A DNA stretch of 64,000 nt from contig NZ_LMCM01000005.1 of the NCBI RefSeq assembly GCF_001426245.1, positions 248,001-312,000 on the forward strand, given 5' to 3'. Positions 43,244 to 62,376 of the stretch are shown here, one piece after another. Each line of letters starts with the position of its first letter. Position 1 is the stretch's first letter. Below the pieces are notes generated by a model that saw only the letters and a program-made list of their open reading frames with translations, ran no database searches and had not been told where the DNA came from. The translations under genes and the position numbers were made by a program. The DNA is from Phycicoccus sp. Root101. GTDB lineage: Bacteria; Actinomycetota; Actinomycetes; Actinomycetales; Dermatophilaceae.

Positions 43244-44698
43244 TCAGAGGGCGATGCCGACGTACTTCGTCTCGAGGTACTCCTCGATGCCCTCGAACCC
43301 GCCCTCACGACCGAACCCCGAGTGCTTGACCCCTCCGAACGGCGCCGCCGGGTTGGAGACGATGCCCTGGTTCACGCCGACCATGCCGAACTCGAGGGCC
43401 TCACCGACGCGCAGGGCACGCGAGAGGTCGCGGGTGAAGACGTACCCGACCAGCCCGTACTCCGTGGAGTTGGCAGCAGCGACGGCTTCGGCCTCGGTGG
43501 CGAAGGTGGTGACGGGGGCCACCGGTCCGAAGATCTCCTCGGTGAGGCATCGCGCCCCCGGTGGGACGTCGGTCAGGACCGTGGGGCCGTAGAACCAGCC
43601 GTCACCCGAAACGGGTGAGCCCCCGGTGAGGACCTTCGCCCCCCGGCCCACGGCGTCCTGGACGAGCGCATCCACCCCGTCGCGCGCCTTGGCCGTCACC
43701 AGCGGTCCGACGTCCACCCCGGCCCGGGTACCCGGACCCAGCGTCAGCGCGCCCATCCGTGCCGCGAGCTTGCCGGAGAACTCCTCCGAGACCGACTCGT
43801 GGACGAGGAAGCGGTTGGCCGCGGTGCAGGCCTCGCCCATGTTGCGCATCTTGGCGAGCATGGCGCCGTCGACTGCGGCGTCGACGTCGGCGTCCTCGAA
43901 GACGAGGAACGGGGCGTTGCCGCCGAGCTCCATGGACACCCGCAGGAGCTGCGCGGCGGACTGCTCCACGAGGGCCTTGCCCACCGGGGTGGAGCCGGTG
44001 AACGTGAGCTTGCGCAGGCGTGGGTCGCGGATCAGCGGTGCGCACACCGCCCCCGACTGCGACGTGGTGACGACGTTGACCACACCGTCCGGTACGCCGA
44101 CCTCCTGCAGCAGCCGCGCGAGCGCCAGCATGGACAGTGGTGTCTCGTGCGCCGGCTTCACCACCATGGTGCAGCCCGCCGCGATGGCGGGTCCGATCTT
44201 GCGCGTGCCCATCGCGAGCGGAAAGTTCCACGGCGTGATCATCAGGGTGGGGCCGACAGGAGCCTTCATCGTGACGAGCCGTGTCGCTCCGTTGGGGGCG
44301 ACGGAGAAGCGCCCGTGGACGCGGACCGCCTCCTCGCTGAACCAGCGGAAGAACTCTGCGCCGTAGGCCACCTCGGCCCGCGACTCGGCGAGCGGCTTGC
44401 CCATCTCGAGGGTCATGAGGAGGGCGAGGTCCTCGGTGCGTTCGACGAGCAGCTCGTATGCCGCGCGCAACAGCTCGGCGCGCTCGCGCGGTGGGGTCCG
44501 CGCCCACCCGGCCTGCGCCGCTGCGGCCGCATCCAGCGCGGCAGCGCCGTCCTCGACGGTGGCGTCGGCGACGTGGGCGAGGACGGCACCCGTCGCCGGG
44601 TCGTGGACCTCGAAGGTCGAACCCGAGCTCGAGTCCTGCCACGTGCCGCCGATGTACAGCTGTTTCGGCACGTCGGCGAGCAGGTCCTGACGGTTCAC
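43244..44698 (-). CDS. Aldehyde dehydrogenase (succinate-semialdehyde type)
   Basis: NAD(P)-dependent aldehyde oxidation to the acid; 484 residues. Motifs: MITPWNFPLAMGTRKIGPAI, FTGSTPVGK, the catalytic Glu in MELGGNAPF, catalytic Cys in GEACTAANRF, and EEIFGPVAPV. Closest in pattern to GabD-like enzymes, but the island context suggests an aldehyde from an unknown polyol or hydroxyketone. GTG start with GGAG 7 bases upstream. Second gene of a minus-strand pair after the PRISE reductase. Confidence 0.88.
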   Translation of the reverse strand: MNRQDLLADVPKQLYIGGTWQDSSSGSTFEVHDPATGAVLAHVADATVEDGAAALDAAAAAQAGWARTPPRERAELLRAAYELLVERTEDLALLMTLEMGKPLAESRAEVAYGAEFFRWFSEEAVRVHGRFSVAPNGATRLVTMKAPVGPTLMITPWNFPLAMGTRKIGPAIAAGCTMVVKPAHETPLSMLALARLLQEVGVPDGVVNVVTTSQSGAVCAPLIRDPRLRKLTFTGSTPVGKALVEQSAAQLLRVSMELGGNAPFLVFEDADVDAAVDGAMLAKMRNMGEACTAANRFLVHESVSEEFSGKLAARMGALTLGPGTRAGVDVGPLVTAKARDGVDALVQDAVGRGAKVLTGGSPVSGDGWFYGPTVLTDVPPGARCLTEEIFGPVAPVTTFATEAEAVAAANSTEYGLVGYVFTRDLSRALRVGEALEFGMVGVNQGIVSNPAAPFGGVKHSGFGREGGFEGIEEYLETKYVGIAL

Positions 44699-44735
44699 GC
44701 TGGTCTCCAGGGGGCTTGAGGTCGGAGGTGGCCGG

Positions 44736-45803
44736 TCAGACGCGGGGCACGATGCCGTTCTCGCGCAGCTGCTCGAACAGGTCGCGGAACGACTGGGCCG
44801 TGCCCTGGTAGTCCAGGAACCCGGCAGCGCGGCTCTTGCCCATGTCGGCGAAGGTCTCCACGGTGCGCCCGAGGTCGGCGTCGGTGTGCCACCAGGACGC
44901 CAGCTCGGACGCGGCATACGGCTTGAGGTCGTTGGCCTCGACGATGCCGGCCCACACCTCGTCCGCGTGGTCCATCCGACCCTCCAGCGGGGTGGGGGAG
45001 CCCGGGTACTCCGCAGGCTCGACACCGAGCGCCGCGGCGACGTCCTTCCACAGCTGCCGCCAGCGGAAGACCTCGCCGTTGACGGTGTTGAAGGCCTCGT
45101 TCTCGCCGGCCGGTTCGCTGGTGGACCAGGCCACGTGGCGTCCGAGCAGGCGGGCGTCGGTGAGGTCGGTGACGCCGTTCCACTGCTCCGGGCTGCCCGG
45201 GAACACGAAGGGCTCGCCGGTCGCGCGGCAGATCGCACCGTAGACGGCCAGCGTCACCCCCATGTTCATCGCGTTGCCCAGGGCGTAGCCGATGAGCGTG
45301 TGGGGTCGGTGCACCGACCACGTGAACGAGTGCTCCTCCGCCGCCGCGAAGAGGATGTCCTCCTGGACGTAGTAGAAGTTCTGGTGCGGCAGTCGTCCCT
45401 GCTCCTCACGGAACGGGGTGTCGGCCGGGGCGCTGGCGTAGGCCTCGAACGGCCCGAGGTAGTGCTTCAGCCCGGTGATGAGGGTCGCGTGCGTCAGCTG
45501 GTTCGTGGCGCACACGATGTCCAGGGTGTTCTGCAGCATTTCACCATTGACCCTGCAGTTCTCCGCCTCGGTGTCCTGCCGCTGCCAGGTCGCGAACACC
45601 ACGTCCGTGATGGTGAGCCCGGCGATGGCTGCCCGGATCGACTCCCGGTCGAGCACGTCGGCGTACACGTGGGTGACGCCGGGGAGCTCGTACTTGGGTG
45701 ACCGCGACATGCCGATCACCTCGAATCCCTTGTCCTGCAGGGCGATCGCTGAACTGTAGCCAGCCATGCCGGTAACGCCGACAACGAGGGCAGAGCGCTT
45801 CAT
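44736..45803 (-). CDS. PRISE-type SDR (enone reductase-like)
   Basis: Atypical SDR of the progesterone 5-beta-reductase/iridoid synthase-like group, 355 residues. Nucleotide motif VVGVTGMAGYSSA, and both PRISE catalytic signatures: Lys in TGLKHYLGPF and Tyr in NFYYVQEDILF. The classical SDR YxxxK is absent. PRISE enzymes reduce activated C=C bonds of enones with NADPH. First gene of the minus-strand pair, with AGGAGACC before the ATG. In bacteria the substrates are unknown. Confidence 0.85.
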   Translation of the reverse strand: MKRSALVVGVTGMAGYSSAIALQDKGFEVIGMSRSPKYELPGVTHVYADVLDRESIRAAIAGLTITDVVFATWQRQDTEAENCRVNGEMLQNTLDIVCATNQLTHATLITGLKHYLGPFEAYASAPADTPFREEQGRLPHQNFYYVQEDILFAAAEEHSFTWSVHRPHTLIGYALGNAMNMGVTLAVYGAICRATGEPFVFPGSPEQWNGVTDLTDARLLGRHVAWSTSEPAGENEAFNTVNGEVFRWRQLWKDVAAALGVEPAEYPGSPTPLEGRMDHADEVWAGIVEANDLKPYAASELASWWHTDADLGRTVETFADMGKSRAAGFLDYQGTAQSFRDLFEQLRENGIVPRV

Positions 45804-45871
45804 CTGACAGGTCTCCTGAGGTGTGACGGGACAGCCAGGCGGGGGACGGGCCTGGTCCGACGGTGTGCGGC

Positions 45872-45900
45872 ATCGTGGCGCGCATAGACCGAGGGGTCAA
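45872..45900 (-). promoter_or_regulatory. Promoter of the PRISE-aldehyde dehydrogenase pair
   Basis: On the minus strand TTGACC (45895-45900) is 17 bases from CACGAT (45872-45877). Predicted start near 45865 leaves a 60-base leader. An operator-like site lies just upstream. Confidence 0.45.
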
Positions 45901-45906
45901 GTATAG

Positions 45907-45923
45907 GTTAACATTTTGATCAC
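45907..45923. promoter_or_regulatory. Operator-like site 1
   Basis: GTTAACATTTTGATCAC, a partial dyad (GTNANCA-N3-TGNTNAC) in an AT-rich island in otherwise GC-rich DNA. It resembles the sites at 46835 and 49855 and flanks the XRE-cupin regulator gene. Confidence 0.5.
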
Positions 45924-46078
45924 TGTCGCGAACCACTGAACGGAGAAGGGCATGCCTGAGCGCCGTCCCGGCCCGAGAGCCGTTCCGGTCGGACGCATCG
46001 ACACGGTGTGGCACTGATGCGGCACGGGACCGACTGGTCCTCGCGGATCCGGGGTACCTTCGGCGGGAAGTGGATCCG

Positions 46079-46792
46079 ATGAGCGAGGGATTGGTCACCA
46101 TGCCAGTGGGACGGTTGGGCGCACGCCTGCGCGAGGAACGGACGCGGGCCGGCCTGTCCCTGCGGGGTGCGGCGCGCGAGCTCGGCGTCTCGCCGTCCTT
46201 CGTGTCGCAGATCGAGAACGGCAAGTCCCAGCCATCGGTGGCCACCTTGTACTCCCTGGCCCGCTTGCTCAACGTCTCCATCGACGAGCTCTTCGCCGTG
46301 GAGTCGGAGACGCCGGATCCTGCTGCGACACCGGTGCGTTCGCTTGGGTCCACGCCGAAGAAGCGCAAGGCCGTAGGGGTGGTGGGCAAGCTCCCCGCCC
46401 GCTCCGACATCAGCTCGCCGGCGGAGGCCTTCCCCCAGGAGTCGAGCCACAGCCGGGTCGCCGTGACGCGGCCGGGGGAGCGCTCGCGGCTCGAGATGGA
46501 CACCGGCGTGGTGTGGGAGCGACTGGCCACGAACACGGGGCCGGACTTCGACTTCATGGAGATCATCTACCCGGCGCACAGCAGCTCGACGAGCGACGGG
46601 CGGATGCTGCAGCACGCCGGCTTCGAGTTCGGGTACCTCGTCGAGGGGGAGCTCGAGATCACCGCGGGTTTCGACGTGTTCACCCTGCGCGCCGGGGACT
46701 CGATGAGCCTGGACTCCTCCCTGCCCCACCTCCTCACGAACCGCGGCGACGAGCCGGCGCGGGGCATCTGGCTCGTCGCGCACCAGCACTGA
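46079..46792 (+). CDS. XRE-cupin transcriptional regulator
   Basis: A 237-residue regulator. N-terminal HTH_XRE (about 8-65): GARLREERTRAGLSLRGAARELGVSPSFVSQIENGKSQPSVATLYSLA region; a basic linker (PKKRKAVG); C-terminal cupin (about 150-230) with the conserved block HAGFEFGYLVEGELEI and LPHLLTNRGDEPARG, likely to bind a small effector. It lies between the minus-strand pair and the plus-strand series of the island, with operator-like sites on both sides, and is the obvious local regulator. ATG chosen; a GTG at 46070 would overlap the purine-rich ribosome site. Confidence 0.88.
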   Translation: MSEGLVTMPVGRLGARLREERTRAGLSLRGAARELGVSPSFVSQIENGKSQPSVATLYSLARLLNVSIDELFAVESETPDPAATPVRSLGSTPKKRKAVGVVGKLPARSDISSPAEAFPQESSHSRVAVTRPGERSRLEMDTGVVWERLATNTGPDFDFMEIIYPAHSSSTSDGRMLQHAGFEFGYLVEGELEITAGFDVFTLRAGDSMSLDSSLPHLLTNRGDEPARGIWLVAHQH

Positions 46793-46814
46793 GGCGACGA
46801 TCGTTCGGTAGTTC

Positions 46815-46843
46815 TTGACACCGAACGCCGCAGCGTTAACCAT
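46815..46843 (+). promoter_or_regulatory. Promoter of the plus-strand island series
   Basis: TTGACA (46815-46820) and AACCAT (46838-46843) with a 17-base spacer. A second candidate -10, TAGTGT, lies at 46855-46860. The operator-like site overlaps the -10 region. Confidence 0.5.
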
Positions 46844-46853
46844 GTATGAACAC
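46835..46853. promoter_or_regulatory. Operator-like site 2
   Basis: GTTAACCATGTATGAACAC, followed directly by a dyad GAACAC-N3-GTGTCC type (46848-46862). It shares GTTAAC and a TGA-CAC end with site 1 and matches 14 of 19 bases with the site at 49855. Confidence 0.5.
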
Positions 46854-46903
46854 ATAGTGTCCCTCGCGGATGCTGCGACAACGACGTCGACCGAGAGGTG
46901 CGC

Positions 46904-47884
46904 ATGAAGGCGCTGCAGTTCGAAGCCCCCTCCACCTACGCGGTGAACGAGCTGGATCTCCCGCGCATCGGCGATGACGAGGTCCTCGTCGCCAGCCGCG
47001 CGGTGGGCGTCTGCCACTCGGACATCGAGCTGCTCGAAGGCCGCTACATCATCCCCTTCGAGTACCCGGTGATCCCGGGGCACGAGTGGGCCGGCGAGGT
47101 CGTCCAGGTGGGGCGGGGCGTGACCGGCTACGGGCCCGGCGACCGGGTCGTGGGGGAGTGCGTCATCGGCAGCGACCACTTCGGCTTCAGCATCAGCGGC
47201 GCGGCCGCCGAGTTCTTCGTCGCGAAGGAGTCGTGGCTGCACCGCCTCCCGGACGCGCTGTCGTGGACCCAGGGCGCCCTGGTCGAACCCTTCAGCTGCG
47301 GCTACTACGCCACCGTGCAGGCCGACAACCTCGACGCCAGCGACACCGTGCTGGTCTACGGAGCCGGCCCCATCGGGCTCGGCGTGGTCGCCGCATCCGC
47401 GGGCAAGCGGGCCAAGGTCATCGTCGCCGAGCCGTCGGCCGCCCGGTCCGGCCTGGCGCAGACGCTCGGGGCGGAGATCGCCCTCGACCCGACGTCGGCC
47501 GACTTCGAGGACGCGGTCAAGGAGCACACCGACGGCCAGGGGCCGAGCGTCGTGATCGAGGCGAGTGGTCGCCCGGAGGCGATGGCCTCTGCGCTGGAGG
47601 TCGCGGGTTTCCGCGCCCGACTGGTCTACGTCGGCATCGACGTGGGCTCCTCGGTGCCGGCGAAGCTCGGTCTCTTCCAGTCCAAGGAGCTCCAGGCGCG
47701 GGGGATCATCGGCTCACCCGGCGTGTGGCCCCAGACCCTGCGCTTCCTGGCTCGCAGCGGTGTCGACCTCTCCCCCCTGGTCACGTGCCAGGTCCCCCTC
47801 CTCGAGGGTGACCGAGGCATCCGGACCGTCCTCGAGGACAAGGCGCAGGTCAAGGTCCACCTGACGTCCGACGCGACGCTGTAG
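46904..47884 (+). CDS. Zinc alcohol dehydrogenase lacking the structural-zinc lobe
   Basis: Medium-chain dehydrogenase, 326 residues, shorter than usual. Catalytic-zinc ligands C37 (GVCHSD), H60-E61 (GHEWAGE) and E128 are present; NAD motif VLVYGAGPIGLGVV. The four-Cys structural zinc loop expected around residues 85-105 is absent and replaced by a Gly/Ser-rich stretch. Such variants are found among polyol and inosose dehydrogenases. GAGAGG lies 5 bases before the ATG. First gene of the island's plus-strand series. Confidence 0.87.
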   Translation: MKALQFEAPSTYAVNELDLPRIGDDEVLVASRAVGVCHSDIELLEGRYIIPFEYPVIPGHEWAGEVVQVGRGVTGYGPGDRVVGECVIGSDHFGFSISGAAAEFFVAKESWLHRLPDALSWTQGALVEPFSCGYYATVQADNLDASDTVLVYGAGPIGLGVVAASAGKRAKVIVAEPSAARSGLAQTLGAEIALDPTSADFEDAVKEHTDGQGPSVVIEASGRPEAMASALEVAGFRARLVYVGIDVGSSVPAKLGLFQSKELQARGIIGSPGVWPQTLRFLARSGVDLSPLVTCQVPLLEGDRGIRTVLEDKAQVKVHLTSDATL

Positions 47885-47916
47885 GTCCACCGAGCCCTGA
47901 AGAGAAGGACATTCGC

Positions 47917-48969
47917 ATGCTTGCAGGAGTTCTCCACGCACCGGGTGACCTCAGGGTCGAGGAGGTGGCCGACCCCACGCCGAAGACGGGCGAGGTCGTC
48001 ATCGAGGTGTTCCACAACGGCCTCTGCGGTACCGATGCCACGGAGTACAGCAAGGGACCGATGATGGTCCCGCTGCAGACCCGCCACCCCGGCAGCGGAC
48101 ACGTGGGCCCGACCATCCTCGGCCACGAGTTCATCGGTCGCGTCGTGGGATCGGCTCCGGACGCCAGCGAATGGGTCGGGAAGACCGTGGCCTCCGGGGC
48201 GGGTGTCTCCTGCGGAGCCTGCGCGTGGTGCCGCCGTGGGCGGACGAACCTCTGCGCCTCGTACTACACGCTGGGTCTGTCGACGCACGGGGGACTGGCC
48301 CAGTTCGTGGCTGCCCCCGCCTCGACCCTGGTGGAGGTCCCCGCGGGCATGCGCACCGTCGATGCCGCGCTGGCGCAGCCGCTCGCGGTGGGGCTGCACG
48401 CCGTCGACCGCGCCGGCATCCGCCCGGGTGACACGGTCCTCGTCCTCGGGGCGGGCGCCATCGGCTCCTTCATCCTCGCAGGGCTGACCGGTCACGACGG
48501 TGAGGTCGTGGTGGCCGACATCGACGACGCGAGGTTGGCGGCGGCCACCACCCTGGGTGCGAGCCGCACCATCAAGCTGACCGCGGACACCTCGACGGAG
48601 GCCGTCGCCGACCTCGTCGGCGGCCAGGTCGACGTCGTCATCGAGAGCTCCGGTGCCCCCGGGGCGGCTGCGAGGGCCCTGGACCTCGCCGTCCGCGGTG
48701 GGCGGGTCCTGCTGGTCGGCCTGTCGAAGGCGCCCCAGCCGATCGCCCTCGCGGGGGTTGTCCTGAGGGAGGTGGACGTCGCGACGACGGTGGCCCACGT
48801 GTGCGGAACCGACCTCCCCCGGGCCCTCGCGCTGCTCGACCGGACGCGTCTGAGCGATGCCGTCGGCGTCAGGACGATCGCGCTGGCAGACGTCGTCCCG
48901 CAGGGGCTGGACCCCCTGGCCGCCGGCACCGCCGGACAGAAGATCCTCGTGGACCCCCGTCGTGGCTAG
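47917..48969 (+). CDS. Zinc-dependent alcohol/polyol dehydrogenase
   Basis: Medium-chain dehydrogenase, 350 residues. Catalytic zinc ligands C37, H70 and E71 (GHEFIG); structural zinc C99, C102, C105 and C113 all present; cofactor motif VLGAGAIGSF. An insertion at residues 48-65 (MMVPLQTRHPGSGHVGP) is like that of butanediol or threonine dehydrogenases. AGAGAAGGA lies before the ATG. Its last 8 bases overlap the next gene. Confidence 0.88.
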   Translation: MLAGVLHAPGDLRVEEVADPTPKTGEVVIEVFHNGLCGTDATEYSKGPMMVPLQTRHPGSGHVGPTILGHEFIGRVVGSAPDASEWVGKTVASGAGVSCGACAWCRRGRTNLCASYYTLGLSTHGGLAQFVAAPASTLVEVPAGMRTVDAALAQPLAVGLHAVDRAGIRPGDTVLVLGAGAIGSFILAGLTGHDGEVVVADIDDARLAAATTLGASRTIKLTADTSTEAVADLVGGQVDVVIESSGAPGAAARALDLAVRGGRVLLVGLSKAPQPIALAGVVLREVDVATTVAHVCGTDLPRALALLDRTRLSDAVGVRTIALADVVPQGLDPLAAGTAGQKILVDPRRG

Positions 48970-49819
48970 GGTCGCCGTCCTCGGGGCGGGGCGCATGGGT
49001 GGGGCCGTCGCCCGCAAGGTGGCCGGTGCCGGGCACGACGTCCCACTGTGGAACCGCACGCGCGCCACGGCCGAGGCCGTCGCCGAGGGGCACGAGCGCC
49101 TGGTCGTCGCGGACACGGCCGCGGAAGCGGTCGCGGGCGCCGACGTGGTGCTCACCATGATGGCGACCGGTGCTGCCACGTGCGAGGTGCTGCTGGCCGA
49201 TGACGTGCAGGGCGCGTACGCCGACGACGTCGTCGTCGTCGACCTGGGCACCAGTGGCGTCGAGGCCGCGCACCGCCTTGCCGAAGGCCTGTCGCAGCGA
49301 GGGGTGTCCTTCGTCGACGCCCCCGTCTCGGGGAGCGTCCCGGCTGTCGAGGGCGGCACCCTGCTCGTCATGGCCGGGGGCCCGGAGGATGCCATCGCGC
49401 GGGCCGAGGGGGTGCTCGGTGCCATCGCCCGCAGGGTGATCCGCGTCGGGGATCCCGGGGCCGGCCAGGTCATGAAGCTCGCCGTCAACCTCGTCCTGCA
49501 CGACCTGAACGCTGCGCTCGCCGAGTCGCTGCGGCTCGCCGAGGGAGCGGGTCTCTCGCGTGAGGACGCGTATGCCGTGCTCCAGGAGAGCGTGGTCGGC
49601 GCACCGTACGTGCAGTACAAGCGGGGCGCCTTCCTGGACACCGCGACACCGGTGGCCATGACGCTGGCGCTGGTGGCCAAGGACCTCCAGCTCATCACCG
49701 AGCAGGCCCGTCGCACGGGTGCGCCGGCCGTGGTGACCGAGCAGGTGCTGCGCACCGTGCAGCTCGCCGTGGAGTCGGGCTTCGGCGACCGGGACATGGC
49801 CGATCTCAGCCGCGTCTGA
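48962..49819 (+). CDS. Beta-hydroxyacid dehydrogenase (HIBADH family)
   Basis: NAD(P)-dependent oxidation of a 3-hydroxy acid to the semialdehyde or reduction in reverse; 285 residues. Rossmann motif VLGAGRMGGAVARKV, substrate loop DAPVSGSVPAVEGGTLLVMAGG, catalytic Lys region GAGQVMKLAVNLVL. Similar to 3-hydroxyisobutyrate and tartronate-semialdehyde enzymes; substrate open. The GTG inside the preceding gene gives the conventional length and places the Rossmann fold at the N-terminus. Confidence 0.87.
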   Translation: MARVAVLGAGRMGGAVARKVAGAGHDVPLWNRTRATAEAVAEGHERLVVADTAAEAVAGADVVLTMMATGAATCEVLLADDVQGAYADDVVVVDLGTSGVEAAHRLAEGLSQRGVSFVDAPVSGSVPAVEGGTLLVMAGGPEDAIARAEGVLGAIARRVIRVGDPGAGQVMKLAVNLVLHDLNAALAESLRLAEGAGLSREDAYAVLQESVVGAPYVQYKRGAFLDTATPVAMTLALVAKDLQLITEQARRTGAPAVVTEQVLRTVQLAVESGFGDRDMADLSRV

Positions 49820-49955: not shown

Positions 49956-50975
49956 ATGGCATCGACCGACGGCGCCCACGGCAGCAGCCCGCGGCGAACC
50001 CTGCCCGTGCTCTCGCGCGGACTGTGGACCGTCCTGGCCGCCCTGGCCCTCCTGGCCGTCGTCTCGATCGTCTTCGCCCCGAGCAGCATGAGCTCCGGAG
50101 CGCTCCAGGGAATGCTGCCGTTCGCTGCGGTCCTGGCGATCGTGGCCATCGGCCAGACCCTGGTCGTCATGCAGGGTGGCTTCGACCTGTCCGTCCCGGG
50201 ATCGGTGTCCATCGTCGTCGTGATCGTCACCCACCAGGCCTACGGGAACGACGCGAAGGTCCTCCCTGCGGCGCTGATGGCGCTGGGCGTGGTGCTCGTC
50301 GCCGGACTGGTCAACGGGTTCCTGATCGGTCGGATGGGTCTGAACCCCATCGTCGCGACGCTCGGGGTGAACGCCCTGCTGTATGCAGGTGTCCTCGGCA
50401 TCTCAGGAGGCACCCCCCGCCAGACCACCGACCTGCTGGCCAGCGTGGCCGGCGGAACCCTCCTGTGGGTCCCGAACTCGCTGCTCGTCGCGGTCGTCAC
50501 GGTCGCCGTCACGACCCTGGTGGTCAAGCGCACCGTGGCAGGTCGCAGGTTCGAGGCCGTGGGGGCGAACGGCAGGGCGGCATGGGCGACCGGCCTACGG
50601 GTGCAACGACATCGCGCCGGCGGGTACGTGGCCGCCCAGGTGCACTACTGGCTGGGAGGTCTGCTGCTCGCGGGCATCCTCAACAAGCCCACCGCCTACC
50701 AGGGCGACCGCTACCTGCTGCCCTCGGTGGCCGCCGTCGTCCTCGGCGGGACCTCGCTGCTGGGCGGCCGCGGCAACATCGCCGCCACGGCGATCGCCGC
50801 GTTGTTCCTCACGCAGCTCGACCAGCTGGTGCTCGCGCTGGGCGTCAACTTCGCCGTCGAGACGCTCGTGCAGGCGGCAGCCTTCGCCATCGGCGTGGCC
50901 CTCTACTCCATCGAGTGGCGCCGTCTGCGCGAACGGTTCGCCCGCAGCCCCGGGCCGGTCGCGTCCCCCTCCTGA
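49956..50975 (+). CDS. Ribose-type ABC transporter permease
   Basis: RbsC-family inner-membrane permease, 339 residues with about 9-10 helices. Family blocks: AIVAIGQTLVVMQGGFDLSV, NGFLIGRMGLNPIVATLG, and the cytosolic coupling region VGANGRAAWATGLRV followed by VLGGTSLLGGRGN. GAGGAGG lies 8 bases before the ATG. It precedes a binding protein and a fused ATPase-permease, so the importer has two different membrane subunits. Confidence 0.9.
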   Translation: MASTDGAHGSSPRRTLPVLSRGLWTVLAALALLAVVSIVFAPSSMSSGALQGMLPFAAVLAIVAIGQTLVVMQGGFDLSVPGSVSIVVVIVTHQAYGNDAKVLPAALMALGVVLVAGLVNGFLIGRMGLNPIVATLGVNALLYAGVLGISGGTPRQTTDLLASVAGGTLLWVPNSLLVAVVTVAVTTLVVKRTVAGRRFEAVGANGRAAWATGLRVQRHRAGGYVAAQVHYWLGGLLLAGILNKPTAYQGDRYLLPSVAAVVLGGTSLLGGRGNIAATAIAALFLTQLDQLVLALGVNFAVETLVQAAAFAIGVALYSIEWRRLRERFARSPGPVASPS

Positions 50976-54800: not shown

Positions 54801-55871
54801 ATGCGGGCAGCACGGTTCCACGGCAAGTCCGACATCCGCGTCGAGGACGTCGACGTCCCCCAGATCCACGAGCACGACGAGGTGCTCGTCGAGGTCCTGT
54901 GGTGCGGCATCTGCGGCACCGACCTCCACGAGTACATGGTCGGTCCCATCGTCACGCCGGTGACGCCACATCCGCTCACCGGCGTGACGCTTCCACAGGT
55001 GCTGGGTCACGAGTTCTCCGCGCGGGTGGTGGAGGTCGGTCGGAGCGTCAGTGACGTGGCGGTCGGTGACCGGGTCGCCATCATGCCCGCCATCGTCTGC
55101 GGACGGTGCCGCTTCTGCCGGGAGGGCCTGGGCCACCTCTGCGAGAAGTTCGCCTGCACCGGACTGTCCGCGGAGACCGGTGGCCTCGCGCAGTATGCGG
55201 TGCTGAAGGAGTACCAGGTCAGCCGCCTGCCGGACTCGGTGTCGGACGTCGAGGGTGCGGTCGTCGAACCCGCCAGCGTCGCGGCATACGGCATCGACCG
55301 CGTCGGGGTCCGCGGCGGTGACATCGTCCTCGTCACCGGTGCCGGCCCGATCGGTGTCCTGTCGGCGATGTACGCGAGCGCCCTGGGCGCCACCACCGTC
55401 GTGATCGCCGAACCCAACCCCAACCGTGCGGCGTTGGCCCGGGCGATGGACATCGGGCCGGTGGTCGACCCCACCCAGGACGGTTTCGCCGACTTCATCG
55501 CCGAGACGACCGAGGGGCGGGGCGTCGACATCGTGGCCGAGTGCTCCGGCTCGACGCCAGGGCTCACCACGGCGATGGACAGCGTGCGCACCCGCGGCAG
55601 CATCGTCCAGACCGGGCTGCACACCCGGCCCGCGACGATCGACGCGATGCGCTTGTCGGAGAAGGACATCAGCTACATCGGGAGCTGGTGCTACCTCATC
55701 ACGGACTGGCCCCGCATCATCCGGCTGATCGCGTCGGGCAAGTACCCCGTCGCCAAGGCGGTCACGACCCGGATCGGGCTCGAGGACGTCGTGTCCCGAG
55801 GCTTCGACGTCCTCGTCAACCCGACCGGTGACCAGCTCAAGGTCCTCGTGTCGCCGACGACGTCGGGCTGA
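54801..55871 (+). CDS. 2,3-butanediol dehydrogenase-like zinc enzyme
   Basis: Medium-chain dehydrogenase, 356 residues. Catalytic zinc C38 (CGICGTDLHEY), H70 and E71 (LGHEFSA); structural zinc C100, C103, C106 and C114; NAD motif VTGAGPIGVLSAMYASALGA. DLHEYMVGPI and the length fit (R,R)-butanediol dehydrogenase, which interconverts butanediol and acetoin. AGGAGGA lies before the ATG; starts 17 bases after the transporter gene. Third zinc dehydrogenase of the island. Confidence 0.87.
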   Translation: MRAARFHGKSDIRVEDVDVPQIHEHDEVLVEVLWCGICGTDLHEYMVGPIVTPVTPHPLTGVTLPQVLGHEFSARVVEVGRSVSDVAVGDRVAIMPAIVCGRCRFCREGLGHLCEKFACTGLSAETGGLAQYAVLKEYQVSRLPDSVSDVEGAVVEPASVAAYGIDRVGVRGGDIVLVTGAGPIGVLSAMYASALGATTVVIAEPNPNRAALARAMDIGPVVDPTQDGFADFIAETTEGRGVDIVAECSGSTPGLTTAMDSVRTRGSIVQTGLHTRPATIDAMRLSEKDISYIGSWCYLITDWPRIIRLIASGKYPVAKAVTTRIGLEDVVSRGFDVLVNPTGDQLKVLVSPTTSG

Positions 55872-55881: not shown

Positions 55882-56424
55882 ATGGCGATCACCATCCAGG
55901 CCATCCACCACGTGGGCCTCGTCGTCCGGGACCTCGACCGGTCGATCTGGTTCTACCACGACCTGCTCGGGCTGCCCTTCGTCAACGAGCCGACGCCCTG
56001 GTTCGAGGGACCGGAGCTGTCCGTCGGTGTGGGGGTTCCCGGAGCCAGGCTCCGCCAGGTCTCCCTGCTCGCCGGCGAGACCATCATGGAGCTCATCGAG
56101 TACGCCGAGCGGCCCGACGGCGGGCCGCAGCCGCCGCCCAACAACAACCTCGGCGCGGCCCACGTGTGCTTCAAGGTGGCCGACGTCGCGGCGACCAAGG
56201 CAGAGCTCGAGAGCCACGGGGTGGCGTTCTACTCCGAGGTGAACGTCGTGGACGACGGGCCGCTCGCCGGCTGGCGCTGGGTCTACTTCAGCGACCCCGA
56301 CGGCCTGGCGCTCGAGCTCGTCGAGATCGCCTACTACGACCAGGAGGCGCGCCGGCTCGCGGCCGCGGAGTACCTGCGTTCCAGACCGTCGAAGGAGCAG
56401 GCCGAGAGTCGCGTGCCCGCCTGA
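55882..56424 (+). CDS. VOC/glyoxalase superfamily protein
   Basis: A 180-residue vicinal-oxygen-chelate protein. One double-module: AIHHVGLVVRDLDRSIWFYHDLLGL with a metal His, IMELIEYAERP with Glu, AAHVCFKVADVAATKAELESHG with the second His, and YFSDPDGLALELVE with the second Glu, so all four metal ligands are present. Likely an epimerase, isomerase or lyase acting on a diketone or hydroxyketone in this pathway; the reaction is not known. Confidence 0.87.
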   Translation: MAITIQAIHHVGLVVRDLDRSIWFYHDLLGLPFVNEPTPWFEGPELSVGVGVPGARLRQVSLLAGETIMELIEYAERPDGGPQPPPNNNLGAAHVCFKVADVAATKAELESHGVAFYSEVNVVDDGPLAGWRWVYFSDPDGLALELVEIAYYDQEARRLAAAEYLRSRPSKEQAESRVPA

Positions 56425-56517
56425 GGCGACCCGCAGGCTCGCCCCCGCCGACCCCGCTCGGCACCCCACCCGTGCCACCCGCCCCCGACTTTTCTTGCAC
56501 AGACCCGAGGAGAACTC

Positions 56518-57882
56518 ATGGTTTCGCCGACATACGGCACGAACGCCGTCGACTGGGAGAACCGCCTGGACATGGACCGACTGCGGTCCGAGCGGTTGGC
56601 GCGCCTCAAGGAGGAGCTCGACCGTTCCGACCTCGGTGCCCTGCTGACGTTCGACTTCCACAACATCCGGTACATGACCAGCACCCACATCGGCACCTGG
56701 GCCATGGACAAGATGATCCGCTTCGCACTGCTGCCACGCGGTGGTGACCCGGTGCTGTGGGACTTCGGCTCCGCCGCCAGCCACCACACCCTGCAGGCAC
56801 AGTGGCTCGACGAGCCGCACCGCGCCGCCGGGCGCGGTGACCGCTACGGCTCCAGGGCCGGAATCTCCACGCTGCGCGGGGCGATCTCGCCGGCGGCAGG
56901 TCGCGCCGAGGACGTCGCCCGCAAGGTGGCCGAGGTGATGCGCGACTTCGGGCTCGAGGGCCAGGCCGTCGGTGTCGACATCGTCGAACCCCCTGTCGCC
57001 GCAGCGCTCAAGGCCGCAGGGCACGAGGTCGTCGACGGGCAGCAGGTCTTCCTCGAGGCGCGTCGGATCAAGACCCGCGACGAGATCGGGCTGCTGACCC
57101 AAGCCGCGTCGATGGTCGACGGAGCCTACGAGCAGCTGTACGACTTCCTGCGCCCCGGGATCAAGGAGAACGAGTGCGTCGGCCTCGTGAGCAAGGTGCT
57201 CTACGACCTCGGGTCGGAGCACGTCGAGGGGGTCAACGCGATCTCCGGCGAGCGCTGCGCACCCCACCCGCACGTCTTCAGCGACCGGATCATCAGGCCC
57301 GGCGACCCGGCCTTCTTCGACATCCTGCACAGCTTCATGGGTTACCGGACCTGCTACTACCGCACCTTCGCCGTCGGCAGCGCGTCGCGCGGCCTGCGTG
57401 ACGCCTACACGATCTGCCGCGAGTACATGGACCGCGCGATCGACCTCGTGAAGCCCGGCGCCACCACCGCAGACATCGTCTCGGTGTGGCCGACGGCGCA
57501 GGAGTTCGGGTTCGCCAACGAGGAGGCGGCCTTCGCCCTCCAGTACGGCCACGGCATCGGGCTGTCGATCTGGGAGCGGCCGATCTTCAGCCGCATGACG
57601 TCGCTCGAGCACCCCGAGACCCTCGAGGAGGGCATGGTCTTCGCACTCGAGACGTACTGGCCGTCCGCGGACGGGTGGGGCGCCGCGCGCATCGAGGAGG
57701 AGCTGGTCGTGACCAAGGACGGGTGCGAGGTCATCACGAAGTTCCCCGCCGAGGACCTGCTGGTCGCGGGCAAGCGCTACTACACGACCGGCGGCTACCT
57801 GCCGACGGTGCGGGACAGCCAGTCCCACCTCAACCGCACCAGGTCGACGTCGGTCGTCGGCGTGGGGGAGGAGAGCCGATGA
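56518..57882 (+). CDS. M24-family (creatinase/Xaa-Pro peptidase-like) protein
   Basis: Pita-bread-fold protein of the M24 family, 454 residues, with creatinase-like N-terminal domain (about 25-180). In the C-terminal domain D268 (FFDIL), H345 (YGHGIGLS), E378 (FALETYW) and the late Glu of RIEEELVV are present, but the position of the second metal Asp is C279 in GYRTCYYRTF. Two-metal peptidase chemistry is therefore doubtful; like creatinase it may hydrolyse or cleave a small molecule. GAGGAG lies before the ATG; the stop overlaps the E1 alpha start (ATGA). Confidence 0.85.
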   Translation: MVSPTYGTNAVDWENRLDMDRLRSERLARLKEELDRSDLGALLTFDFHNIRYMTSTHIGTWAMDKMIRFALLPRGGDPVLWDFGSAASHHTLQAQWLDEPHRAAGRGDRYGSRAGISTLRGAISPAAGRAEDVARKVAEVMRDFGLEGQAVGVDIVEPPVAAALKAAGHEVVDGQQVFLEARRIKTRDEIGLLTQAASMVDGAYEQLYDFLRPGIKENECVGLVSKVLYDLGSEHVEGVNAISGERCAPHPHVFSDRIIRPGDPAFFDILHSFMGYRTCYYRTFAVGSASRGLRDAYTICREYMDRAIDLVKPGATTADIVSVWPTAQEFGFANEEAAFALQYGHGIGLSIWERPIFSRMTSLEHPETLEEGMVFALETYWPSADGWGAARIEEELVVTKDGCEVITKFPAEDLLVAGKRYYTTGGYLPTVRDSQSHLNRTRSTSVVGVGEESR

Positions 57883-58943
57883 GGTCACCACTGACCGACC
57901 ACGTCTACGGACAGCACGCGTCCGTCCTGCCACCGCAGGACCAGACCCGGCACGACGGGGACGACATCGACCTGGCCGTGCGCACGGGCCTGTACCGGAG
58001 CATGCGCGAGATGCGTGTCTTCGAGAAGCGCGCCTACGACCTGTTCATGAAGCAGCTGGTCAAGGGCACCAGCCACCTCTCGCTCGGCATGGAGGCCATT
58101 GCTGCCGGCTTCGGGCAGGCGATGCGCCGCGACGACTACACCTTCGCGACCTACCGCGGGCACGCCCACACGCTCGCCCGTGGCGTCCCCATGACCCCCG
58201 TCCTGGCCGAGCTCCTGGGCCGCGCCAACGGGCTACTCGGTGGCAAGGGTGGATCGATGCACCTCACCAGCGTCGAGCACGGGATGATGGGCTCTTACGC
58301 GATCATCGGTGCCCACCTCACGATCGCCAACGGTGCGGCGTGGTCGGCCCAGTACCGCGGTTCCGGCCAGGTCGCCGTGTGCTTCTTCGGTGACGGCACC
58401 ACCAACATCGGCGCCTTCCACGAGGCCCTCAACTACGCCGCCGTGTACAAGCTGCCGGTCGTCTTCGTGTGCGAGAACAACATGTACATGGAGTACACCT
58501 CGATCTTCGACATCACTGCTGTCGAGCGGCCGGCCGCCGACCGTGCGTCGGCCTACGGCCTCGAGCCGGTGCTGATCGACGGGAACGACGCCGACGAGGT
58601 CTACCTGGCCGCCGGGCGGGCGCTGGACCGGGCTCGCGCCGGGGACGGCCCCAGCCTGATCGAGGCGGTGACCTACCGCCACGGCGGCCACTCCCGCGCC
58701 GATCCGGGCAAGTACCGGCCCAGCGAGGAGGTCGAGGCGTGGAAGGCGTACGACCCACTCGACGTCTACCGCGACCGGCTCATCAGGCTCGGTGTGTCCG
58801 CCGACGAGCTCCTCGCGATCGACGCGGAGGTGCTGGCCGCGGTCGACACCGCCACCCAGGAAGCGATCGCCGGTGACCTGCCCGCACCGGAAAGCGCCTT
58901 CACGGATCTCTGGGCGGATGGAGGCTGGTCATGGCGCAACTGA
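57879..58943 (+). CDS. TPP-dependent dehydrogenase E1 alpha (AcoA-like)
   Basis: Alpha chain of a 2-oxoacid or acetoin-type dehydrogenase, 354 residues. TPP motif GDG 171-173 ending ENN 199-201 (CFFGDGTTNIGAFHEALNYA region), GGKGGSMHL, and the phosphorylation-loop-like YRHGGHSRADPGKYR. Thiamine diphosphate attacks a ketone and an acyl unit passes to lipoate. Overlaps M24 and E1 beta. The family includes acetoin dehydrogenase; pyruvate use is less likely given the context. Confidence 0.88.
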   Translation: MRSPLTDHVYGQHASVLPPQDQTRHDGDDIDLAVRTGLYRSMREMRVFEKRAYDLFMKQLVKGTSHLSLGMEAIAAGFGQAMRRDDYTFATYRGHAHTLARGVPMTPVLAELLGRANGLLGGKGGSMHLTSVEHGMMGSYAIIGAHLTIANGAAWSAQYRGSGQVAVCFFGDGTTNIGAFHEALNYAAVYKLPVVFVCENNMYMEYTSIFDITAVERPAADRASAYGLEPVLIDGNDADEVYLAAGRALDRARAGDGPSLIEAVTYRHGGHSRADPGKYRPSEEVEAWKAYDPLDVYRDRLIRLGVSADELLAIDAEVLAAVDTATQEAIAGDLPAPESAFTDLWADGGWSWRN

Positions 58944-59908
58944 CGTACCGCGACGCCGTCGCACGAGGGATCGCCCAGGAGATGCGACGCGACGAGCGCG
59001 TCCTGCTCGTCGGCGAGGACGTGGCCGGCGCGGGCGGGGTGTTCAAGACGACCGTGGGCCTGCTCGACGAGTTCGGCCCCACCCGGGTCGTCGACACCCC
59101 CATCTCGGAGCAGGCCATCCTCGGAGCGGCCATGGGCGCCGCCATGACCGGCCTGCGCCCCGTCGCCGAGATCATGTTCTCCGACTTCTTCGCCGTCTGC
59201 TGGGACATCGTCGTCAACCAGATCGCCAAGACGCGGTACATGACCGGCGGCCAGGTCAGCCTGCCGCTGGTCATCAAGACCGGCAACGGTGGTGGCCTGC
59301 GGTTCGGTGCGCAGCACTCCCAGTCGATCGAGAACTGGGCCATGGCGATCCCCGGCCTCAAGGTCGTCACGCCCTCGACCCCCGAGGACGTCGTCGGCCT
59401 CATGGCCGCGGCCATCCGTGACGACGACCCGGTGATCTTCTGCGAGCACAAGGGCCTGTACGCGTCCAAGGGCGAAGTCCCCGACGGCGACATCATCGAC
59501 TCCCTGGGTACCGCGAAGGTCCGTCGCCCGGGCAGGGACGCGACGATCCTGTCGCTCGGCATGATGGTGCCGCGGGCCCTGGCCGCGGCCGAGGCGCTGG
59601 CCGCGCGGGGCATGGACGTCGAGGTGATCGACGTGCGCTCCCTCGTCCCGCTGGACACGCAGACGATCCTCGGGTCCGTGTCGCGGACCGGTCGGCTGTT
59701 CACGGTGGAGGAGAACCCGCAGCTGCTGGGATGGGGAGCGGAGATCGCGTCCCTCGCCAGCGACGAGTGCTTCTGGGACCTCGACGGCCCGATCCAGCGG
59801 ATCACCACCCCCCACATCCCGCTCCCCTCGGCCGACTCGCTCGAGGACCTCGTCATGCCCTCCGAGGAGAGCATCGCGACCACCATCGAGAAGGCGCTGC
59901 AGTCGTGA
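58931..59908 (+). CDS. TPP-dependent dehydrogenase E1 beta (AcoB-like)
   Basis: Beta chain of the E1 tetramer, 325 residues. Blocks: LTYRDAVARGIAQEM, LLVGEDVAGAGGVFKTT, DTPISEQAILGAAMGAAMTGLRPV, FSDFFAVCWD, QHSQSIENWAMAIPGLKVV and VEENPQLLGWG. It completes the TPP site with the E1 alpha subunit. The gene begins 13 bases inside E1 alpha and its stop overlaps the E2 GTG. Confidence 0.9.
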   Translation: MAQLTYRDAVARGIAQEMRRDERVLLVGEDVAGAGGVFKTTVGLLDEFGPTRVVDTPISEQAILGAAMGAAMTGLRPVAEIMFSDFFAVCWDIVVNQIAKTRYMTGGQVSLPLVIKTGNGGGLRFGAQHSQSIENWAMAIPGLKVVTPSTPEDVVGLMAAAIRDDDPVIFCEHKGLYASKGEVPDGDIIDSLGTAKVRRPGRDATILSLGMMVPRALAAAEALAARGMDVEVIDVRSLVPLDTQTILGSVSRTGRLFTVEENPQLLGWGAEIASLASDECFWDLDGPIQRITTPHIPLPSADSLEDLVMPSEESIATTIEKALQS

Positions 59909-61110
59909 CCGGAGGACGGGAGGGGCGGGTCGCCGTCACGATGCCCCAGCTCGGCGAGACCGTCGCCGAGGGAACCGTCCTGCGGTGGCTCAAGCAGGTG
60001 GGCGAAGCGGTGGCCGACCAGGAGCCGCTGCTCGAGATCTCGACGGACAAGGTCGACGCCGAGGTGCCCTCGCCGGCCGCCGGCGTGCTGGCAGAGATCG
60101 TCGTCGGCGAGGACGAGACCGTCGACGTCGGAACGGTCCTCGCCCATGTCGCGCCCGGTGCTCCATCGCCCGGGCAGCGGGCCGAGGCCACGGGTGCACC
60201 GCCCGTCGAGCCGGCGGCCGAGGAGCGCTCGCCGTCACCCCCCAGCGGCGAGCGCTCCTCCCCGCCCGCCGGCGGGCCGCGCCACCGGCACTCACCGCGG
60301 GTGCGGCGGCTCGCACACGACAGCGGCGTCGACCTCGCCTCCCTCACCGGGACGGGGCCTGCAGGCCGGGTCACCCCCGACGACGTGGAGCGTGCCGCCC
60401 GGCACGCCGCCCCCGAACCCGTTCCCTCTCCGGAGGCGCCGGTGTCCGTACCGACCCGGGCCGCGCCCCAGCGCGTGTCGACTGCGGCGGCCACCGAGCC
60501 GTTGCCGAGCCTGGCGAGGAGCTCCGCCCCGGCTGCGAACCGTGCGTTCCGCACCCTGGTCGCCGAGGTGGACGTCCCTGCGGCGCAGTGGGTCGGCTCC
60601 TCCGACCAGGCGTCCGTCCCGGTGCCCGGCTCGGCAGCGGCGGCAGTCGTCGCAGCAGTCGCTGGTGCCCTGCGCAGTCACCCCTCGCTCCTGGCCCCCG
60701 GGGCCGGCGCCGACGCGGGCGACCTGGCCGTCTCGTGGTCGACCGGGTCCGGCACCACCTCCTGCCTGCTGTCGCAGGCCGGTGAGCTGAACGTCGGGGG
60801 AGTCGCCCAGCGGCTCCTCGCCGGGGCCACCGCTGGCGAGCCCCCGCCCGGGGCCGGCTTCACGGTGAGCCTCCTCCAGGACACCGACGTGCTCTTCGAG
60901 GTCGCCGAACCCCCGCCGGGTCAGGTCGCGACCATCGTCTTCGGCACCCCGACCCGACGCGTGGTCGTGGTCGATGCCGACGGCTCACCCGGCATCGCCA
61001 TCCGCCAGCGGTCCTCCGTGGCCCTCAGCCACGACCCGGGGACCGTCTCGAGGGAGGCCGCCCTCGCCTTCCTCCGGGACGTGGTCCGCCGGGCACACTC
61101 CCGCGCCTAG
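59905..61110 (+). CDS. Dihydrolipoamide acyltransferase (E2)-like protein with lost active site
   Basis: A 401-residue E2-like chain. Lipoyl domain 9-83 with lipoyl K49 (EISTDKVDAEVPSP); Pro/Glu/Ser linker; peripheral-subunit-binding domain about 129-165 (SPRVRRLAHDSGVDL, GTGPAGRVTPDDVERAAR); second linker; C-terminal catalytic-type domain from about 213. Where active E2 proteins have DHRxxDG, this one has the segment SHDPGTVSREAA: the His and Asp of acyl transfer are gone, and the domain is about 40 residues short. GTGA overlap with E1 beta. It can still carry a lipoyl arm but probably not transfer acyl groups to CoA. Confidence 0.82.
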   Translation: MTGGREGRVAVTMPQLGETVAEGTVLRWLKQVGEAVADQEPLLEISTDKVDAEVPSPAAGVLAEIVVGEDETVDVGTVLAHVAPGAPSPGQRAEATGAPPVEPAAEERSPSPPSGERSSPPAGGPRHRHSPRVRRLAHDSGVDLASLTGTGPAGRVTPDDVERAARHAAPEPVPSPEAPVSVPTRAAPQRVSTAAATEPLPSLARSSAPAANRAFRTLVAEVDVPAAQWVGSSDQASVPVPGSAAAAVVAAVAGALRSHPSLLAPGAGADAGDLAVSWSTGSGTTSCLLSQAGELNVGGVAQRLLAGATAGEPPPGAGFTVSLLQDTDVLFEVAEPPPGQVATIVFGTPTRRVVVVDADGSPGIAIRQRSSVALSHDPGTVSREAALAFLRDVVRRAHSRA

Positions 61111-61143
61111 CCGTCCGTCCACCAGCAGAAGCTCGGAGACCCC

Positions 61144-62376
61144 ATGCCCAGTCCCACCCGGACCCACCACCTCGCCTACTCGACGCTGGTCCACCCCGGC
61201 GACACCTGGGAGGAGATGCGCGAGAGCCTCGAGACCTATGCGCCGCAGGTGAAGGCGCGAGTCTCCCCGGACGAGCCGTATGCCGTGTCCCTGCGGATCT
61301 CGGGTGCCTCCGCCCGGACCCTGACGAGCGATCCCGTGGAACGGAAGCGGCTGCGTGACTGGCTCGACGAGCACGACATGTACGTCTACACCGTCAACGC
61401 GTTCCCCCACGGTCCGTTCAAGGGCCGCAGCGTCATGGAGGACGTCTACGAGCCCGACTGGAGCACGCAGGAGCGGGTCGACTACACCTGCCAGGTGGCC
61501 GACATCCTGGCCGAGATCACCCCCGAGTCGGTGTCGCCCTCGATCCAGACGGCCCCGCTGGCGTTCCGCCCCAAGGTGACCTCCGAGGCCGATGTCGTGC
61601 TCCTGACCGAGAACCTCCTTCGGGTCGTGGCCCACCTTGTCGACCTCGAGCAGCGCACCGGCCGGCGGGTGAAGCTCGCCCTCGAGCCGGAGCCCTACTG
61701 CTACCTCGAGACCACGGCAGAAACGATCACGTACTTCCAGGAGCGGATCTGGTCACGCGCTGGTCTGGTCACGTTCGCGAGGCTGAGCGGACTCCCCGTC
61801 AGCGAGGCGATCGGCGCGCTGCGTCGCCACCTCGGTGTCGTGTTCGACATCTGCCACCAGTCGGTGGAGTTCGAGGACATCGCGGTGTCGCTGGACTCGC
61901 TGGTCGACGCCGGGGTGCCGATCTTCAAGCTCCAGGCGGCTGCCGCGCTGTGGGTCCCGACGGTGGACGCGGAGACGGTCGAGGCGCTGGAGGCGTTCAC
62001 CGACACGATCTACCTCAGCCAGACGACGGAGTCCCGCGGGGGAGAGCTGACGCGGATGCTCAACCTCTCCGACGCGATCGCGGCGTGGCGCAAGGACCCG
62101 GGCGGTGACCGGGAGTGGCGCACGCACTTCCACGTGCCGGTGTTCCTGGACGACCTGGGTCCGTTCCGGACGACCCGCCCCGGCATCGAGGCAGCGTTGC
62201 GGGTGCACGCCGAGCTCGACCTCTCGGACCACCTCGAGATCGAGACCTACACGTGGGACGTGCTCCCCGGGCACCTCAAGACCGGCGACATCGTCGAGTA
62301 CGTCTCGCGCGAGCTCGAGTGGATGCGCGACACCTCGGCCGCACTGGCGACGGCCGACCGGACGGAGTCGCGGTAG
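61144..62376 (+). CDS. EboE-like TIM-barrel protein
   Basis: A 410-residue protein that I recognise as similar to EboE, the metabolite-traffic protein of ebo clusters. Matching features: LAYSTLVHPGDTWEEM, VKARVSPDEPYAVSLRIS, WLDEHDMYVYTVNAFPHGPFKG, VYEPDWSTQERVDYT and SIQTAPLAF. A xylose-isomerase-like metal site is suggested by LALEPEP, VVFDICHQSVEFED and IETYTWDVLPG. No other ebo gene (UbiA prenyltransferase, EboD) is here. It is the last gene of the island and may isomerise the imported solute. Confidence 0.75.
   Translation: MPSPTRTHHLAYSTLVHPGDTWEEMRESLETYAPQVKARVSPDEPYAVSLRISGASARTLTSDPVERKRLRDWLDEHDMYVYTVNAFPHGPFKGRSVMEDVYEPDWSTQERVDYTCQVADILAEITPESVSPSIQTAPLAFRPKVTSEADVVLLTENLLRVVAHLVDLEQRTGRRVKLALEPEPYCYLETTAETITYFQERIWSRAGLVTFARLSGLPVSEAIGALRRHLGVVFDICHQSVEFEDIAVSLDSLVDAGVPIFKLQAAAALWVPTVDAETVEALEAFTDTIYLSQTTESRGGELTRMLNLSDAIAAWRKDPGGDREWRTHFHVPVFLDDLGPFRTTRPGIEAALRVHAELDLSDHLEIETYTWDVLPGHLKTGDIVEYVSRELEWMRDTSAALATADRTESR

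Follow-up and report, generated by a model that had tools for sequence, protein, structure and literature searches.

A block of 16 genes at positions 43,244–62,376 of the window, i.e., the 64,000-nucleotide stretch of Phycicoccus sp. Root101 analyzed here (contig NZ_LMCM01000005.1, positions 248,001–312,000, assembly GCF_001426245.1), is, according to comparative genomics, a conserved, co-inherited system of soil and freshwater actinobacteria. It combines two modules. The front end comprises an EboE-like protein (hereafter EboE), dehydrogenases, an enone-reductase-like protein of the PRISE type, and a CUT2-type ATP-binding cassette (ABC) importer; the second module consists of an M24-fold protein and the alpha and beta subunits of an E1 enzyme dependent on thiamine pyrophosphate (TPP). 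The E2 component encoded next to this split E1 is often decayed or lost, while E1 remains under constraint. Our preferred, tentative reading, to which we give slightly less than an even chance, is that the cluster is regulated and serves the catabolism of a small polyhydroxylated compound, which would be oxidized and then cleaved at a C–C bond by E1 with TPP, without a lipoyl-bearing E2. A preliminary description of the same DNA had seen a single uptake-and-oxidation island; co-inheritance and the pairing of uptake with oxidation hold, and the single unit gives way to two modules.

Conservation of the cluster around EboE

A genome scan with the window EboE yielded 552 confirmed stretches, and the best 80 loci (59–79% identity; numbered with the prefix L) were retained. 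Grouping of their open reading frames separated 53 loci of EboE clades 2 and 5, all actinobacterial except one record labelled Marinovum, from 27 loci of clade 4, mostly from proteobacteria and Acidobacteria plus two Acidimicrobiia. L050, whose EboE reading frame fell out in the overlap filter, was assigned to clade 2 manually. Among the 53 clade-2/5 loci, many of them on short contigs, we found the ABC fusion in 43, the zinc dehydrogenase ADH3 in 38, the binding protein in 36, M24 in 31, E1 in 26, the VOC-fold protein in 25, the dehydrogenase resembling 3-hydroxyisobutyrate dehydrogenase (HIBADH) in 22, ADH1 in 20, and PRISE in 19. Since the set recurs across many genomes, it is more than chance. 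At the same thresholds, none of these partner genes was found in 14 control loci around more distant EboEs (29–35% identical where matched; L045 had no match), where a few weak ABC matches (29–38%) stayed under the thresholds. The preliminary description had proposed a search for such co-occurrence, and the importer, dehydrogenases, PRISE, VOC, M24, and an E1 indeed accompany EboE repeatedly.

The partners of clade-4 EboEs include Gfo/Idh, HIBADH-like (21 of 27 loci), BKACE, Dabb, and MetE-like proteins (one representative per family was scanned), a set that fits a shared keto intermediate reached and used in different ways. BKACE-type and Dabb proteins, again from one scanned representative each, adjoin EboE in L095, L109, and L123 (Paraburkholderia/Caballeronia). 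The MetE-like (Meth_synt_2) family, identified from its L115 representative, occurs near EboE in eight clade-4 loci (L075, L086, L092, L113, L114, L115, L119, and L121). In the Terracoccus/Terrabacter loci L047–L049, EboE is followed downstream by a flavin mononucleotide-dependent 2-hydroxyacid dehydrogenase and an aldehyde dehydrogenase (ALDH; L047 representative scanned). Four metagenome-assembled records labelled Bifidobacterium breve or Marinovum (L053, L076, L083, and L094) carry the actinobacterial cluster, and their labels look doubtful.

E1 in genomes that carry EboE

E1 is a near-obligate partner of EboE in actinobacterial clades 2 and 5. A whole-genome search, covering all of these loci except L072, L097, L098, and L099, found E1 in 47 of 49 genomes: 40 have a fused alpha-beta form (~733 aa), located inside 20 of the 53 loci, and seven have the split form of the window without a fused one. 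At no less than 58% identity, the fused form was present in 15 of 21 genomes of one search batch and 25 of 28 of the other. The split E1 beta is 77–91% identical in L047, L048, L049, L051, L052, and L054, and 60% in L083; in L051, L052, and L054 it lies on the EboE contig in the order M24, E1 alpha, E1 beta. L057 and L089 carry both forms. No E1 was found in L076, where the contig starts inside E2, or in L094, a record labelled Marinovum.

In the phylum background, the fused E1 was found in 2 of 296 genomes, possibly a slight undercount as scoring was limited to three top candidates per genome (Fisher p = 4e-41 against the EboE-positive set, relatedness ignored). The foreground was scored fully; two of its 40 fused-E1 matches are pieces at contig ends (L055 and L069), and the L069 piece would miss the E limit of the background. 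This background understates some families: in the family of genome G307, 50 of 199 genomes have the fused E1, namely all five EboE-positive ones and 45 of 194 others (p = 0.0009). In the EboE-positive ones it lies on the EboE contig, approximately 2–18 kb away; three of these five (G304, G307, and G321) were already among our loci. Four of the 186 genomes in the window's own family encode EboE, and an E1 beta that is identical or at least 89% identical occurs in the same four and in 0 of 182 others; the next best match is 63%, and four more genomes have a weaker E1 beta (52–63%). Three of the four EboE-positive genomes are probably those of Terracoccus/Terrabacter counted above, and neither EboE nor a close E1 beta was found in the ten other genomes of the same genus that were listed. 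EboE thus implies E1, not the reverse: 45 genomes of the G307 family have the fused E1 without EboE.

In the E1 beta tree, which carries a long-branch warning, the window sequence groups with L163, L165, L166, L168, and L169, apart from a clade formed by the fused type; E1 is thus exchangeable between the split form and a fused form from another clade, and the notion of one fixed E1 orthologue was rejected, as two types swap. The earlier label of an acetoin-type E1 was not borne out: E1 alpha scores best with PDH_E1_alph_y (314 bits, below the cut-off of 394), and E1 beta passes the pyruvate dehydrogenase (PDH)-type subfamily PRK09212 (352 bits, cut-off 321).

E2 decay beside the split E1

The preliminary description had called the window E2 dead, and we agree. 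Pfam recognizes its lipoyl and E3-binding domains (PF00364 and PF02817), the acyltransferase domain PF00198 gives no match, and the catalytic motif DHRxxDG is lost. Other split-E1 loci show various stages. A lipoyl domain and the catalytic motif are kept in L083 (as DHRAIDS), L212, and the proteobacterial L214; L211 has an intact motif without a lipoyl domain; L047–L049 have neither; and L213 retains only a degenerate catalytic remnant. In L057 and L089 no E2 stands between E1 beta and EboE, and a fused E1 with an E2 is present elsewhere in the genome. On the minus strand of L047, at 14,279, there is an acyltransferase-profile match that lacks the motif. In the Terracoccus/Terrabacter trio the E2 gene is weakly constrained, with dN/dS of 1.03 (L048 against L049, with few changes, dS 0.033), 0.33, and 0.37, compared with 0.05–0.18 for E1 alpha, E1 beta, M24, ADH3, EboE, and the ABC fusion. 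Beside the fused E1, 22 of 24 E2 proteins (protein groups 15 and 20) have the catalytic motif, and a contig end truncates each of the remaining two. Because the E2 beside the split form is often degraded or absent while E1 stays constrained, the simplest reading is that this E1 may act without lipoyl transfer.

PDHX-like E3-binding proteins likewise lack acyltransferase activity but carry lipoyl and E3-binding domains. The window E2 shares this composition; the difference is that the E2 of L047–L049 has lost the lipoyl domain too and is under weak constraint.

The best-surviving alternative is an ordinary oxidative E1-E2-E3 system, in which a different 2-oxoacid dehydrogenase complex of the cell lends E1 its intact E2 for the production of acyl-CoA, the local E2 being a redundant scaffold. 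The genome itself could supply such a partner: it encodes three PF00198 proteins, the window E2 not among them, one of which lies beside another E1 on contig C10. Moreover, fused-E1 clusters keep an intact E2, sometimes with LpdA, and L057 and L089 contain both systems. Against borrowing, lipoyl, E3-binding, and acyltransferase profiles found no match in any of 11 split-E1 loci without EboE (three of them, L215–L217, short), and E2 was lost or degraded in several lineages with E1 remaining constrained. We regard borrowing as unlikely, though well worth keeping in view.

The M24-E1 module and its variant metal site

Canonical M24 metallopeptidases bind metal through D, D, H, E, and E. In the window protein the site reads D268/C279/H345/E378/E393, and Cys replaces the second Asp in 42 of 42 aligned M24 proteins (36 of them from grouped loci including the window, six encoded on plasmids). 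The model of the dimethylsulfoniopropionate lyase DddP (NF043017) gave 108 bits, far below its cut-off of 600. Plasmid-encoded relatives are 53–74% identical (25 best matches). A Phaeobacter plasmid cluster contains a sugar ABC importer, short-chain dehydrogenases/reductases (SDRs), a HIBADH-type gene, M24, E1 alpha, E1 beta, a lipoyl protein, a succinate-semialdehyde dehydrogenase (SSADH), a separate E2, and LpdA. Further relatives occur in other catabolic clusters on Tritonibacter, Streptomyces, and Paenarthrobacter plasmids, and an ALDH is present in the Tritonibacter and Phaeobacter modules. No E1 is annotated within 15 kb of the M24 relative on Rhodococcus pR1CP1.

The split E1 beta was found at 60% identity or more in 24 of 296 phylum genomes, including that of the window. 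Eleven of the 23 others (E <= 1e-110) were examined as L215–L225: M24 of at least 53% identity lies near E1 in ten of them (in the short stretch L217 the M24 match is only 26%), ALDH adjoins E1 in five, and this screen found EboE in none. The proteobacterial L214 gave no M24 match. M24, E1 alpha, and E1 beta, often with ALDH or HIBADH, thus form a portable module that exists without EboE. Independent occurrence of the genes in relatives, which the preliminary description named as evidence against its proposal, therefore applies to this half; scattering was rejected for EboE relative to E1 in actinobacteria from the two family comparisons, and clade-2/5 EboE lacks E1 in only 2 of 49 genomes.

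On the Paenarthrobacter plasmids L131 and L132 the Cys-variant M24 lies near RidA, cupin or helix-turn-helix regulators, and HIBADH-like genes, and in L132 a predicted SulR, a flavin reductase of the sulfonamide type, is encoded some 2 kb away from it. In Tritonibacter and Phaeobacter (L133, 15,281–18,604; L135, 16,289–19,910) E2 is split into lipoyl and catalytic proteins with an SSADH between them. The plasmid stretches L137–L141 carry the fused E1 with SDRs and, in part, VOC, E2, LpdA, SSADH, and a shikimate-dehydrogenase-like gene; their annotation includes no EboE.

Proposed pathway

The importer would take up the compound, for which a cyclitol or a polyol resembling one is the likeliest identity. 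The binding protein is of the sugar type; among proteins of solved structure it comes closest to YtfQ and to ribose-binding-type proteins, with scores of no more than 52 bits. Up to three zinc dehydrogenases, the HIBADH-like enzyme (3-hydroxyacid/semialdehyde interconversion), and PRISE (enone reduction) would interconvert alcohols, ketones, and enones. The nearest solved relative of PRISE is progesterone 5-beta-reductase (249 bits), and the motifs GLKHY and NFYYxxED are retained, with the Lys and Tyr that we take to be catalytic. Of the three different zinc dehydrogenases announced earlier, all are present; ADH1 has the catalytic zinc motifs but not the structural-zinc lobe with four Cys that ADH2 and ADH3 contain.

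EboE could epimerize or isomerize a keto intermediate. It scores 420 bits against NF035939 (cut-off 250) and is predicted to fold like ketose 3-epimerases, with a TIM barrel, and residues E181, E183, D235, H238, H328, H330, E365, and E367, candidate ligands for an E-D-H-E metal site as in that superfamily, are invariant in 50 of 50 sequences. A sequence-profile search yielded no relative of solved structure (best E 0.17); identity to ketose 3-epimerases and the hydratase AtHYD is 8–17%, and the window protein is ~80–140 residues longer than the 3-epimerase chains. M24 and VOC may then prepare the substrate of E1, which with TPP would cleave a C–C bond next to a carbonyl (in an acyloin, diketone, or 2-oxoacid) and release an aldehyde or acid with no acyl hand-over to a lipoyl E2; ALDH would oxidize the released aldehyde. 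As no sugar kinase was identified in profile scans of the 16 proteins, the route is probably unphosphorylated. Butanediol dehydrogenase makes acyloins, and the likeness of ADH3 to this enzyme speaks for the scheme, together with the ALDH found beside the split E1, the predicted EboE fold, PRISE, and the sugar-type binding protein.

Several points weigh against it. The substrate is assigned by family resemblance, and M24 enzymes are known to act on C–N or C–S bonds, which are absent from a simple polyol. The fused E1 of 40 of the 49 genomes comes with an intact E2 where seen, and an oxidative step is therefore feasible. Even beside the split E1, an intact E2 is retained in L083 and L212; L057 and L089, without an E2 beside the split E1, hold the fused system with an E2 elsewhere; the Phycicoccus genome has its other E2 genes, and the window E2 keeps two of its domains. 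The window ALDH is 13 kb from E1, on the other strand. In clade 4, importer, XRE, and VOC are absent from all 27 loci, E1 exceeds the thresholds in three (with weaker pairs in L092 and L106), and among 11 genomes searched only L118 has the fused E1, at 58%; a split-E1-beta relative of 48–71% was found in 5 of 9 (L075, L092, L108, L112, and L118). The near-obligate status of E1 is thus established for clades 2 and 5 only.

A nitrogen-containing or cyclohexenone-ring substrate (aminocyclitol, mycosporine, or gadusol-like) would accommodate the C–N chemistry of the M24 family: M24 would split an amide-, imine-, or enamine-like bond, PRISE would reduce the enone, and EboE would act on a C7 ring, by analogy with the ebo clusters. 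In favor of this are the RidA genes that accompany M24 on plasmids of Paenarthrobacter, the MetE-like gene found close to EboE in part of clade 4, and the presence in ebo clusters of EboD, a putative sugar-phosphate cyclase according to an excerpt of PMC5133447. The sugar-type binding protein, the lack of RidA in the window cluster, and the occurrence of the M24-E1 module in other contexts disagree, and a search of the open-access literature gave nothing relevant on mycosporine catabolism among the papers listed. We consider such a substrate improbable.

More improbable still is that the cluster modifies a known route of acetoin/2,3-butanediol or inositol catabolism: ADH3 resembles both butanediol dehydrogenase and IolM and an E1 pair is present, but the 16 proteins include no active AcoC, no E3, and no iol equivalog above cut-off, and importer, EboE, PRISE, and M24 are not known to belong to those pathways.

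Beyond the catabolic assignment, and somewhat more tentatively, the split E1 and the Cys-variant M24 could constitute a widespread E2-free TPP module, in which an E1 of the 2-oxoacid dehydrogenase family has become a stand-alone C–C lyase, hydrolase, or decarboxylase feeding ALDH, which here would end a new unphosphorylated cyclitol-type pathway with a catabolic EboE epimerase in its front end. Oxidative polyol catabolism with a TPP step is of a known kind; the E2-free E1 is the surprising part. If correct, the scheme would describe a catabolic pathway common to freshwater and soil actinobacteria, give a functional context to a catabolic branch of the uncharacterized EboE family, and offer, in an E1 freed from the E2/E3 complex, a natural experiment on PDH-type TPP enzymes without lipoyl transfer.

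Comparison with known systems

The preliminary description knew of no pathway with this gene set and named a match to a characterized pathway such as acetoin or inositol catabolism as evidence against its proposal; no such match was found. A search of the open-access literature (some queries being poorly aimed, subscription papers and preprints outside the scope) gave no description of the cluster. Among the matches listed, no NCBIfam model exceeded its cut-off for the 16 proteins, apart from those of EboE and the PDH-type E1 beta subfamily.

Acetoin/2,3-butanediol catabolism is encoded by bdhA and acoABCL. The window shares with it a vicinal-diol-type dehydrogenase and the E1 pair, and differs in its dead E2 in place of a competent AcoC, the lack of E3 (LpdA) among the 16 proteins, and the additional importer, EboE, PRISE, and M24; membership was rejected on AcoC and E3. 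Inositol catabolism proceeds by IolD-type TPP ring opening or by the Thermotoga-type IolM route. Here the likeness lies in ring-polyol oxidation by a dehydrogenase, TPP-dependent C–C cleavage, and a xylose-isomerase-like TIM barrel, whereas the TPP enzyme of the window belongs to the E1 family and not to IolD. ADH3 scores 226 bits with the IolM model (scyllo-inosose 3-dehydrogenase; cut-off 450), and none of the 16 proteins reaches the cut-off of another iol equivalog (for ALDH and ABC, among the best 25 matches), so that membership was rejected as well. The window EboE passes the EboE family model, but the block has no EboA-D or EboF and was not assigned to them. These neighbors are annotated in L126–L129, complete ebo operons on Rhodobacterales plasmids whose EboEs are 39.5–44.9% identical to that of the window.

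Gene content and locus layout

Each of the 16 genes is an open reading frame of the family named in the preliminary description (Table 1). ALDH and PRISE are divergent from the remaining genes. The tight overlaps reported earlier from M24 to E2 are present as ATGA between M24 and E1 alpha (57,879–57,882) and GTGA between E1 beta and E2 (59,905–59,908); E1 alpha and E1 beta instead overlap by 13 nt (58,931–58,943), and ADH2 and HIBADH by 8 nt (48,962–48,969). The genome comprises 4.38 Mb in 12 contigs, and the GC content of the window is ~69–74%. As listed, 12 of the 16 genes passed the GC-profile filter. The binding protein, ADH3, E1 alpha, and E2 are missing from that list because their reading frames extend far upstream of the likely start; their calls are based on family matches.

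Table 1. Genes of the block, with window positions and supporting matches
Gene product	Position	Strand	Support
Aldehyde dehydrogenase (SSADH-like)	43244..44698	-	PF00171 545 bits; TIGR01780 562 bits, below cut-off 646
PRISE enone-reductase-like SDR	44736..45803	-	PF22917 58.6 bits, above cut-off 27
XRE-cupin regulator (PuuR-like)	46079..46792	+	PF01381, PF07883; PuuR model 72 bits, below cut-off 211
Zn-dehydrogenase ADH1, without structural-zinc lobe	46904..47884	+	PF08240/PF00107; motifs
Zn-dehydrogenase ADH2	47917..48969	+	PF08240/PF00107; both zinc motifs
HIBADH-like 3-hydroxyacid dehydrogenase	48962..49819	+	PF03446/PF14833; solved relatives 95–109 bits
ABC permease	49956..50975	+	PF02653
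Sugar-type substrate-binding lipoprotein (CUT2 class)	51080..52198	+	PF13407
ABC double ATPase fused to permease	52219..54783	+	PF00005 twice, PF02653
Zn-dehydrogenase ADH3, butanediol/polyol type	54801..55871	+	nearest solved relative (R,R)-butanediol dehydrogenase, 212 bits
VOC-fold protein	55882..56424	+	PF00903 61 bits
M24-fold protein, variant metal site	56518..57882	+	PF00557 129 bits
TPP-dependent E1 alpha	57879..58943	+	PF00676 237 bits
TPP-dependent E1 beta	58931..59908	+	PF02779/PF02780; PRK09212 above cut-off
Degenerate E2, dead acyltransferase	59905..61110	+	PF00364/PF02817 only; catalytic motif lost
EboE-like TIM barrel, predicted ketose-3-epimerase fold	61144..62376	+	passes NF035939; no Pfam match

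Just outside the block, its upstream flank (41,247–43,196) encodes a protein with three cell-wall-binding repeats (CWB2, PF04122), and an LCP protein flanks it downstream.

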